Assembly: GCF_024385505.1 (NCBI RefSeq)
Contig: NZ_JANFLT010000006.1
Span: 186,001-250,000, forward strand
Reading direction: 5' to 3'
Length of the DNA: 64,000 bases
Source of the DNA: Arthrobacter zhaoxinii
GTDB taxonomy: Bacteria; Actinomycetota; Actinomycetes; Actinomycetales; Micrococcaceae
Made by a program: the position numbers and the translations under genes. Shown one piece after another: positions 10,652 to 13,487 of this stretch (its first letter is position 1; each line of letters starts with the position of its first letter). The notes beneath the pieces were generated by a model. It was not told where the DNA came from. It searched no databases and saw only the letters and a program-made list of their open reading frames with translations.

Positions 10652-10693
10652 CCCTGTTCTAGTTCCAGCGCCTTAGCTGGAACTAGAACAGGG
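10652..10693. terminator. 18-bp perfect inverted repeat between convergent genes
   Basis: CCCTGTTCTAGTTCCAGC (10652-10669) and its exact reverse complement (10676-10693) flank a 6-nt loop (GCCTTA). The right arm contains the TAG stop of the leftward helicase-sigma gene and its last codons. Position between convergent genes fits a bidirectional terminator, although neither side has a good T-tract. Confidence 0.6.
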
Positions 10694-13487
10694 TTCCAAG
10701 GGACTCTTTGATCTTCGAGACCTGATGGAAGCCAAGCGTGACAGGGATCTCTCGCTCGAAGATGGTCACCATGACCAGTAGCTGGTCGGAGTCGGGTTTG
10801 ATCTCGACAAGCCTTGCCTCCAGGGTTTTGAAGGGACCTTCAAGGATGGTTACTTGTTGGCCGATCGTGAAATCCGAGTCGACGGCCTTCTGCTGATGCT
10901 GTTTGGCCTGTGAATCCGATGTGGTCTTGGCTTCCTGTAGCTCTGGCTTGGCCGCGGCCGGACCCGGCGCCACGGTGGACGCCTGCGGCGGGTGGCCATC
11001 GTAGTAATCGTAGAGAACCTGTGAACGAGAACGGTGACGCAACTTGCTTAGCGTTAGCTTTTCGATCTGGCGAATCCGCTCTCGGGTAACCCCGTAAACC
11101 TTGCCGATTTCGTCCAGGGTCTTCGGCTCCCCGTCCGTAAGGCCGAATCGCATGGCGATTATTCCAGCTTCTCGTTCCGACAAAGTGTCCAGTACGGAGT
11201 GCAGCTGTTCCTGCAAGAGCGAAAAGATGACAAGGTCTATCGGTTCGGGTTCCGCAGGGTCATAGATGACATCTTGAAGCGATTCCCCGTCTTCGGTCAG
11301 CTCCGGAACGTGGAGATCGAGTGAGATGGGGGTGCGATCGTAGCGCCGTGCTTCTGTGACCTTCTCCGGCGTCATGTCGACTTTCAGCGCCACTTCTTCG
11401 GCCGAAGGATCGCGCATGAGTTCTACCGCCAGCTCGCGTTCCACGCTCCGGATTTTGTTGATGACTTCGACCATGTGCACCGGGATGCGGATGGTGCGGG
11501 CCTGGTCTGCCATGGCACGGGTGATGGCCTGGCGGATCCACCACGTGGCGTACGTGGAGAACTTGAAGCCCTTGGTGTAGTCGAACTTCTCGGCCGCGCG
11601 AATCAGGCCCAGGTTGCCTTCCTGGATCAGGTCCAGGAAGAGCATGCCGCGGCCGGTGTAGCGCTTGGCCAGCGAGACAACGAGGCGCAGGTTGGCTTCG
11701 AGCAGGTGGTTCTTGGCGCGCCTGCCGTCGTGGGAGACCCACTGCAGCTCGCGCTTGAGCTTGGGATCCATGTCGGGATCCGCTGCGACCTTCTCTTCGG
11801 CGTACAGGCCGGCCTCAATCCGCAGAGCTAGGTCGACCTCTTGGCTCTCCGTCAGGAGGGGAGTTCTCCCGATTTGCCGCAAATAGTCGCGGACCGGATC
11901 GGCATCTACGTCCGAGGTTTGTTCATCCAAGTCGATGACCGTCGGTTCCAGCACCTCCGGCTGGAATCCCGAATCTCCTAGGTCATCTTGAAGGCCCTGA
12001 CTGCCTGACGGACCGACAGAGGCCGCACCGTCGGGATCCGGATCGACGGAAGGCGAATCGGAAAGGGGATATGCGAGGAATGCAATGAGCCGGTCCAGAT
12101 CTCGTGAGATGTCGAAGTACTCGAGGTCCTTTGCGTGGGGAAGGATGCGGCCAAGGTGCTCATCCCCGCGGATGGTGGGGTCCTCGACGGTGTGGTTTGC
12201 GTACAAGACGACAAGGCGACCATGGCGTCCATCGACCTTTTTTCGAATGATGCGTCCCAGACGCTGGACCATCTGTCGCTGGCTGCGGTTGGCAGCGACG
12301 ATGATCCCCAGGTCCGCTTCGGGGACGTCGATACCTTCATCCAGTATTCGAGGAGCTGCAAGCACTTGGGAAATGCCGGTGCGGAATTCCTCCATGTTCA
12401 AAGCCCGCTCTGCCTTGTCCATTCCGCTGTAGAGGGCGGATGCACGGCAATCGGTTCCATCGAAGATGGATTGCGCTGCGCGGGCGGAGGCCTGCGTCTG
12501 GGTGAAGATGAGCGTTCCCTTGGAAGCTGCGGCGGTTTCCCGCAGATGGGACATCGCTGCGTTCTTGGCTTCGGTTTCCGCGAGGAGCGCGAGCCGGGCC
12601 GACATCGCCTTCATGTACTTGCGGGCCAACGTGGGAGCCAATCCCACGTCCTTTGATTCGGCGAGCCTGCCAACCGCGGCTATGAACTCCGCGAAACGAC
12701 GACGTGGAATGCCTTCATACCGCTCCAACCACCGGCCGGCGTCGTTCATCACTTCCGTGTGCTTTTGGTACTCGGCCATTTCAGCAGGTGCCAGGTCCAC
12801 GCCCACCAGAGCAACAATGAAGGGAGAAATCACCTCATCACGCAGGGCACGGTCGTACCAGAGGGAGTAGATCACTCCGCCGAAGTACGGATCGAGCCGG
12901 TCGATATGGGCTCCGTCCGTACGTTCGTATGTGGCTGTGAGTCCCAGACGCCAGTCGAACCCGTCCTGCAGTGCATTCTCGAACATCGGCGATGCATAGC
13001 GATGGCACTCGTCGGCGATGAGGAGCCCCGCTTTGTGTCTGGCGAGGAGCTCCCTTGTCGCAGCTGAATGGACAATGGCCACCAGAACGTCAACCGTTGC
13101 CAGAGAGTCTTGCCGCCCGTTCCCGAGGGTGCCCTGCTTGACGTGCGGAAGGGTCTTTTTCAAGGTCCGGACCCATTGGTTCTGGAGTTCAGTCGTGGGC
13201 ACGAGCACAAGCACCTTGAAGCCCTTCCGCAGGGCATCAGAGGCAGCTGCGACACCCACCCGGGTCTTGCCCGCGCCCGTTACCGCTTCGACTACGCCTC
13301 GGCGCGCCTGGCTTCTCCAGGCATCGACCGCCTCCTGCTGCCAGACATACAGGCCCGGGTAGTCGACTGAGGCAGGAAGCTCGTGCCGATAAGGCCCGCC
13401 GTGTACGTTGCCCGGTGATGACCGTACCAAACCACCTGTCGCTGAACCGCGAGTGTCTTCCCCAACCCGCGCCTGACCGTTAAACAT
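10683..13487 (-). CDS. SF2 helicase - sigma-70 factor - NusG KOW triple fusion
   Basis: 934 residues. ATG 13487 is chosen because AGGGGG lies 4 nt before it; the longer reading from 13616 would overlap the divergent vsr start. Residues 45-470 are an SF2 helicase: Walker A TGAGKT (70-75), DECH (159-162), LTAT (183-186), and motif [13 protein letters not shown] ... QRLGRIIRK (about 385-416). After an acidic linker, residues 529-825 are a sigma-70 factor: region 1.2 [11 protein letters not shown], region 2 with [18 protein letters not shown] and [18 protein letters not shown], region 3 beginning RTIRIPVHM, region 4 [23 protein letters not shown] (790-809). Regions 2 and 4 read almost like the housekeeping HrdB/SigA. 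Residues 873-927 match the KOW domain of NusG ([17 protein letters not shown] ... [12 protein letters not shown]). Inference: a helicase that travels with, or recruits, RNA polymerase. I know no described protein with this architecture. Confidence 0.92.

Follow-up and report, generated by a model that had tools for sequence, protein, structure and literature searches.

Bacterial sigma-70 factors open promoters without ATP; RNA polymerase II (Pol II) uses the XPB motor. According to the accessible part of PMC3353954, XPB is a DNA repair helicase that acts at Pol II promoters, and mycobacterial XPB unwinds DNA. Sigma-type domains, in turn, have precedents in defence proteins: the available sections of the respective papers mention mzaA as a sigma factor (PMC9523054) and report a sigma-related helix-turn-helix (HTH) inserted in some DndH proteins (PMC10853773) and a sigma-like HTH domain in BrxL (PMC12839542). 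Here, we analyze a 64,000-nucleotide stretch of the Arthrobacter zhaoxinii genome (contig NZ_JANFLT010000006.1, positions 186,001 to 250,000; hereinafter, the window), in which one minus-strand gene encodes an XPB-type superfamily 2 (SF2) helicase, sigma regions 1.2 to 4 and, at the C-terminus, a NusG-type KOW domain. We put at roughly 0.4 the probability of the reading that we favor, namely, that this is a defence-island protein whose sigma half would dock the motor on RNA polymerase at SigA-type promoters, where the motor would remodel or block initiation.

Judging from model matches, the nearest named relative of the fusion is MzaA (NF041931 and the PADLOC MzaA model, of 726 and 683 positions, respectively), which carries sigma-70 regions at the C-terminus of a defence-associated protein; the kinship is by the sigma part only. 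Membership in the MZA system was rejected: the window protein scored 338 bits against the NF041931 cut-off of 800 and matched model positions 453-718 only. Sigma genes of the phylum reach up to 372 bits with the same model, and the 800-bit cut-off was passed in none of 396 genomes. The DndH variants of gammaproteobacteria share with the fusion a sigma-type domain within a defence protein that has a DNA translocase; in these variants, as the accessible text of PMC10853773 describes them, an HTH is inserted before HerA/FtsK, whereas the fusion carries regions 1.2-4 behind an XPB helicase. No described helicase-sigma fusion was recognised in the open-access literature, most subscription papers being outside our reach. 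The first-pass annotation, made from the sequence without database searches, knew of no described example either; it agrees with the literature on the fusion as such, and MzaA and the DndH HTH, in what the accessible texts say of them, are precedents for sigma-type domains in defence proteins. By sequence, the fusion represents a real, conserved protein family that is undescribed as far as our searches reach.

The fusion gene lies at 10683..13487 on the minus strand, the interval and the 934 residues being those given by the first-pass annotation, which left the strand unsaid. From the ATG at 13487 to 10683, the minus strand reads through without a stop for 934 codons; on the plus strand, the three frames of this interval contain 17, 22 and 30 stops. 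The ribosome-binding-like sequence AGGGGGA directly precedes this ATG, and an alternative, longer start at 13616 would give a protein of 977 residues. Pfam finds ResIII/DEAD/Helicase_C followed by Sigma70_r1_2, r2, r3 and r4, in this order and each at about twice its cut-off or higher. The XPB-family SF2 helicase domain (residues 47-475; 12063..13349, minus strand), identified with Pfam and archaeal XPB chains, is followed by a disordered linker (476-529; 11901..12062), sigma regions 1.2 to 3.0 (530-680; 11448..11900), a diverged sigma region 3 with an altered sigma finger (681-748; 11244..11447), sigma region 4 (749-830; 10998..11243) and the NusG-type KOW (873-928; 10704..10871), all encoded on the minus strand. 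An assembly or frameshift artefact at the linker, the refuting case that the annotation itself had named, was ruled out, since 19 homologues carry the same fusion in single open frames, a recurrence that also speaks against chance; in a single distant relative, G073, one cluster has the helicase and sigma in separate genes, which leaves these 19 frames as they are. Thus, the helicase-sigma fusion is real and its architecture is well supported, and the Pfam domains together with the matches to NusG chains bear out the annotated helicase-sigma-KOW protein.

An AlphaFold2 model built from 20 aligned fusions has a mean predicted local distance difference test score (pLDDT) of 74.9 and a predicted template modelling score (pTM) of 0.50. 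The helicase is mostly confident (pLDDT mostly >80), as are sigma regions 1.2-2, the KOW is middling, and sigma region 4 is also modelled; residues 476-528 in the linker and 719-746, the sigma finger stretch, are disordered (pLDDT <50). Because the pTM is 0.50, the relative positions of the domains are not readable from the model. A Foldseek search with it gave 1413 matches, and the 50 listed among these are sigma chains or sigma-polymerase models.

The closest solved chains of the helicase half are archaeal XPB proteins (XPBII, E value 4.8e-33; RAD25, 2.9e-30); the four best solved sequences for the SF2 core are all XPBII or RAD25 (4.8e-33 to 3e-30), and TFIIH XPB is a weaker match than archaeal XPB. 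The core shared with the XPB/RAD25 family (archaeal, TFIIH and mycobacterial) extends over about 375 residues, and the family differs from the fusion in that the latter has a sigma factor behind the helicase. XPB proteins carry an N-terminal damage-recognition domain. The best alignments begin at chain residues 69-95 and leave the first 68-94 outside, so the XPB N-terminal part is not seen in these alignments; residues 1-37 and 39-41 of the fusion have pLDDT <50. The motifs G.GKT, DE.H and QRLGR are invariant across the 20 aligned fusions. As far as similarity tells, the helicase half is an XPB-family SF2 core, most similar to XPB, and, with its motifs intact, it is predicted to translocate. 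In the defence libraries, the nearest entries are PbeA (PDLC02707; 190 bits), the best PADLOC match, and dnd_restrict_1 (TIGR04095; 126 bits). PbeA combines an HKD nuclease with an SF2 helicase, according to the accessible part of PMC10853773, whereas Pfam found no nuclease domain in the fusion, where sigma follows the helicase. With 126 bits against a TIGR04095 cut-off of 600 and no nuclease domain found by Pfam, assignment to the Pbe/Dnd restriction helicases was rejected.

The sigma half matches Streptomyces SigA/HrdB chains at 466 bits (phmmer E value 4e-139 for the whole sigma part), and query residues 487-831 of the window fusion are 74% identical to SigA of its own host. The identity is uneven, with 82 of 83 residues identical in region 2, 65 of 75 in region 4 and 36 of 74 in region 3. 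We aligned the 20 fusions with the SigA proteins of their hosts, numbering residues as in Escherichia coli. All 20 fusions keep D403, F427, T429, Y430, W434, Q437, H455, R584, E585, R588 and Q589; L402, E407 and W433 are present in 19, Q406 and N409 in 18, and E458 in 17. T440 is retained in 11 copies and replaced by D, S or N in 9, and M413 and Y425 are variable. Thus, five of the -10 contact residues and four of the -35 contact residues are kept throughout, and the core-polymerase contacts (D403, Q406, E407 and N409) in 18-20 of the 20, in line with the annotated retention of the residues that bind core and promoter DNA. Regions 2 and 4 with these core, -10 and -35 contact residues are, by sequence, those of the sigma-70 family. 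Regions 1.2, 2 and 4 are shared with the group 1 factors (SigA/HrdB), which are distinguished by region 1.1 and a conserved finger; the fusion has the helicase and the linker in place of region 1.1, and its finger has diverged. The sigma factor is therefore not 'complete', as it had been called, given also the divergence of region 3.

The host sigma finger, 15 residues long, is identical in 18 of the 20 hosts, and the other two share 9 of 15 residues with these. Nineteen fusions retain 1-6 of the 15 residues of their own host, and the window copy retains 8; the finger has evidently diverged in every copy but is only half lost in the window copy. Kept core and promoter surfaces with a diverged finger would be somewhat more in keeping with a sigma that docks than with one that initiates in the standard way. 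The same residues bear on the possibility that the protein is a productive alternative sigma with a built-in, ATP-driven promoter opener, comparable to XPB in TFIIH, that, on infection or under DNA stress, would reprogram transcription, for instance that of the defence island. The XPB family of the motor, the kept promoter contacts, the D, S or N at position 440 in 9 of the 20 copies, which could shift the -10 preference, and the 8 finger residues of the window copy all speak for such a factor; against it, the finger is diverged in 20 of 20, and regions 2 and 4 of the window copy are so close to SigA that they should read SigA promoters. We consider this reading unlikely, while giving it serious weight. 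Alternatively, sigma regions 2 and 4 might serve, without polymerase, as mere DNA-binding modules, for melted -10-like and for -35-like sequence, of a helicase-type restriction factor. One fusion, L059, lacks Q406, E407 and N409, yet keeps F427-Q437 and the -35 residues, as expected of such modules, and the helicase family has other partners elsewhere, such as a type IV restriction endonuclease-helicase in Blastococcus; the retention of the core contacts in 18-20 of the 20 copies counts against this explanation, which we find quite improbable.

Both halves of the protein are under purifying selection. In six pairs of relatives, the ratio of nonsynonymous to synonymous substitution rates (dN/dS) is 0.03-0.08 for the helicase lobes, 0.02-0.23 for sigma regions 1.2, 2 and 4 where dS was measurable, and 0.11-0.37 for region 3, compared to 0.25-0.68 for the linker.

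The near-identity of region 2 to SigA extends to the DNA. In the window, a tract of host-type sigA DNA at 11455..11860 (minus strand) is 92.4% identical to the host sigA over 407 alignment columns in regions 1.2-2, followed by a sharp drop. Two other copies contain such tracts relative to their own sigA, 649 bp at 91% in L047 and 809 bp at 88% in L089, so that 3 of the 20 fusions carry them in regions 1.2-2, at 88-92% identity. We counted the identical residues that are encoded by the same codon in each fusion and its own host sigA (p values uncorrected). In the window, these are 70 of 77 in region 2 versus 51 of 99 in regions 3 and 4 (p=1e-8); the corresponding counts, starting from regions 1.2 and 2, are 122 of 138 versus 34 of 61 in L047 (p=1e-6) and 116 of 135 versus 39 of 75 in L089 (p=2e-7). 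The test is borderline in L150 (p=0.057), and among the other 16 copies, only L056 passes 0.05 (p=0.038, region 2 alone). The G+C content at third codon positions in the window gene is 0.91 in region 2, 0.80 in region 1.2, 0.65 in region 3 and 0.63 in region 4. We excluded codon bias as an explanation of the window tract, since 70 of 77 exceeds the approximately 58% of identical codons expected from host sigA usage; it is also contradicted by regions 3 and 4 of the same gene. Thus, in three lineages, host sigA DNA has evidently, and recently, taken the place of sigma regions 1.2-2. As the window tract is just as close to the sigA of three congeners (L013-L015) as to that of the host, it fixes neither the donor nor the date. 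Because region 2 has the highest DNA identity, recombination may simply occur more readily there, without selection for it. The tolerance of authentic host sigma 1.2-2 at this position argues that this part functions as a normal sigma 2.

Refreshment of the sigma part also invites the interpretation that it is a decoy or guard, in which sigma, joined in the window copy by the NusG KOW, would mimic phage targets, and a bound phage anti-sigma protein would switch on the motor or its partners. Phage proteins targeting sigma are well known, as far as the accessible parts of the literature go, and sigA DNA in three of the 20 lineages, a host-like NusG KOW in one, and a region 4 close to host SigA in the window copy (65 of 75) would all suit a lure. 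Known anti-sigma proteins mostly grip region 4. None of the tracts includes this region, and its identity to the SigA of its own host is only 35-50% in 15 of the 20 fusions (65-87% in the group of five that includes the window); both points weaken the idea. Moreover, 17 of the 20 copies show no clear refreshment, and a decoy would not require the kept DNA-contact residues. We regard it as improbable.

The last approximately 60 residues of the window fusion match NusG chains (best E value 3.4e-12); its C-terminus is identical to that of host NusG at 40 of 72 positions, with the IFERE.PVTLGF.QV block preserved. At the codon level, there is no sign of recent capture from the host NusG (25 of the 40 identical residues use the same codon). 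When the 20 fusions were searched with the KOW using phmmer, the window copy alone matched (1 of 20). The annotated KOW is thus present and peculiar to this copy, and, being absent from the other 19, it was ruled out as a general component of the family and cannot belong to a general mechanism. The KOW of NusG contacts Rho, S10 and elongating polymerase.

To assess the distribution of the fusion, we scanned a genome collection of 84,980 species with the helicase alignment and obtained 68 loci; the scan starts from two exact peptide patterns and may therefore overlook relatives. Among the 64 loci in which the frame at the match was read (L044-L107; L108-L111 were left out), 17 carry sigma 1.2-4 in the same open frame as the helicase, and the helicase frame of L067 carries part of sigma. 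Broken frames mark the helicase-sigma genes of L067, L084 and L104, perhaps decaying copies. Searching 396 genomes of the order added the fusions L146 and L150. Open helicase-sigma frames, the window and 19 others, are therefore found in 20 genomes of different species, all actinobacterial, with hosts that include Arthrobacter, Brevibacterium, Pseudoclavibacter, Frigoribacterium, Enteractinococcus, Klenkia and a Geodermatophilaceae bacterium. In the order-level search, 13 of the 396 genomes had a helicase match at E<=1e-60, and 8 of these carry sigma, a status that rests on 11 of the 13 (G137 and G306 apart); in G073, G221 and G407, no sigma was found within the helicase frame. Among the matches listed for 99 relatives, one that runs from the N-terminal part through helicase and sigma occurs only in the genome of the window, G036 and G065, and G087 gave an odd match to query residues 331-832. 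None of 27 other genomes of the same genus contains the fusion, the best match in each being a sigma match. The gene is rare and its distribution patchy.

A tree of 58 helicase sequences (11 of 69 were dropped as short or weak, and L151 and L153 were left out by a motif filter) includes 21 sigma-bearing rows that need three label changes. Seventeen of these, including the window, form one group (97/92); L089 and L047 group with Blastococcus proteins that combine the helicase with a type IV restriction helicase (L048), and a second group, surrounded by helicases without sigma, consists of L150 and L067. It is possible that the fusion arose by two gains, or by one gain followed by losses. Three Geodermatophilaceae loci (L048:9686-13549, L049:2266-6126 and L047:4457-8497) encode the same kind of XPB-like helicase linked, in place of sigma, to a DUF3427 type IV restriction helicase, followed by an HNH gene; the DUF3427 partner is annotated in L048 and was recognised by similarity in L049 and L047, and L047 carries both partner types, this one and sigma. 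In G073 (C111, locus L042), the helicase, sigma (a 738-residue frame) and an MTES_1575 helicase are separate genes of one cluster, which also contains Vsr and a C5 methylase, both found by eye. L070-L083 and L102 make up a tight clade of 15 similar sigma-less helicases with a cysteine motif at the end, nearly all from Acidimicrobiia and Microthrix metagenome-assembled genomes, many of them marine. A viral origin was also considered and set aside: a scan of viral contigs returned 19 loci, all weak SF2-type matches (best E value 4e-13), with the flanks not searched for sigma.

The gene calls around the fusion are our own, and in this high-GC DNA, some are probably miscalls, for example, in L056 (1498-10326), in L046 (the split c6 gene) and in the window (open reading frame 25757-27157); eight neighbouring reading frames of the window were searched with Pfam, and seven of these also with PADLOC. 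Tail to tail with the fusion gene, at 4149..10610 on the plus strand, lies the gene of a 2153-residue Hhe-like protein (HEPN_Swt1, DUF4011, helicase and MTES_1575 by Pfam; PADLOC PDC-S37 at 940 bits and Hhe at 419 bits), homologues of which adjoin the fusion in L056 and L061. On the other side, 13590-24935 (plus strand) is an operon-like row: Vsr (13590-14015, identified by eye from the sequence), a C5 methylase (about 14087-15442, from a domain search, start by eye), an 814-residue P-loop protein (Walker A by eye) between the methylase and the DndH-like gene, a 479-residue protein (start by eye), and a DndH-like HerA/FtsK protein (about 19329-24935, from domain and PADLOC searches). These genes may form a DndFGH-like restriction unit that works together with cytosine methylation.

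The minus-strand members of the neighbourhood are c7, the fusion, c6, a PDDEXK protein across the left window edge and a UvrD-type protein beyond it. The NERD and UvrD-like protein c7 (25261..26934), which adjoins the fusion in Arthrobacter ipis, is 63.6% and 65.9% identical to its L044 and L046 copies, the domains having been read from the latter. The product of c6 (1637..2893) has a sigma-region-4-like HTH (Pfam Sigma70_r4, 29 bits); the L046 homologue contains a TY-Chap3 domain, and by clustering, c6 recurs beside or near the fusion in Arthrobacter. L044 and L046 have the whole set in close proximity, as does L045 except that c7 is missing. The window looks like that minus-strand set with opposite-strand defence genes between its members. 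Left of the window (L112, about -12.4 to -7.6 kb) are SIR2-like, ADP-ribosylglycohydrolase, ARPP-1 and NUDIX (by eye) genes, and the last three also flank the fusion in the Arthrobacter loci L044, L045 and, in part, L046.

In other genomes, the fusion lies near the BREX genes BrxHI and PglZ (L056), MADS (L050), ZacC (L051), a DrmD-like/type IIG gene (L057), a UvrD-type gene (L061), MTES_1575 helicases (L047 and, by clustering, L089) and, by clustering, UvrD/PDDEXK pairs (L052, L054 and L055). By our reading, at least one defence-type neighbour is present in 14 of the 18 fusion loci with long flanks (L146 and L150 left out). It thus seems most likely that the fusion is mostly kept among defence genes, and the defence-type setting that had been annotated for the window recurs in other genomes. 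UvrD and PDDEXK genes together, or PDDEXK genes, that accompany the fusion at distances of up to about 10 kb in loci of Arthrobacter and Brevibacterium could instead encode repair nucleases, with sigma bringing an XPB repair motor to polymerase in a transcription-coupled, Mfd-like repair of DNA. The repair role and unwinding activity attributed to XPB in the accessible text cited above would suit this explanation, which is weakened by the rarity and patchiness of the gene and by neighbours that change from locus to locus and include BREX, MADS and restriction genes; we find it quite improbable.

We return to the docking of a motor at promoters in defence. A captured primary sigma would carry the XPB-type DNA motor to transcription-initiation complexes by binding core polymerase and SigA-type promoters. 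The motor, on its long flexible tether, would pump promoter-flanking DNA at the expense of ATP, and this pumping might clear, trap or remodel the initiation complex. As a result, transcription from incoming phage DNA would fail, or the infected cell would shut down. In the window copy, the KOW may bring a further contact, with Rho, S10 or elongating polymerase, as NusG biology would suggest.

Several points count against this reading. Core binding should weaken in L059, and W433 is lost in L060. The window copy still has about half of the finger, and extracytoplasmic function (ECF) sigma factors lack region 3, so that the canonical finger is dispensable to them and a changed finger is no proof of an unproductive sigma. 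In the six-pair dN/dS comparison, several dS values are saturated, and at a pTM of 0.50, the AlphaFold2 model does not fix the placement of the motor relative to sigma. Four of the 18 loci with long flanks (L053, L059, L060 and L091) lack an obvious defence neighbour, and the tally of such neighbours comes from hand-picked genes, without a random-region control. Furthermore, SigA-type promoters are also those of the host, which leaves the discrimination between self and non-self unexplained.

In its boldest form, which we advance tentatively and with the odds somewhat against it, the fusion would be a one-protein bacterial counterpart of TFIIH, an XPB motor joined to a primary-type sigma as a promoter-guided immune weapon that would drive or jam promoter opening with ATP, be kept host-compatible by recurrent gene conversion from sigA and, once, be extended by a KOW. 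If the protein indeed protects from phages, promoters would be a place to which immunity can be guided, for which the family libraries searched offer no counterpart. The sigA-derived tracts clearly exemplify recombination between an accessory gene and an essential housekeeping gene, and with the natural XPB-sigma chimera in 20 genomes, one can test whether an XPB motor is able to work on bacterial initiation complexes.

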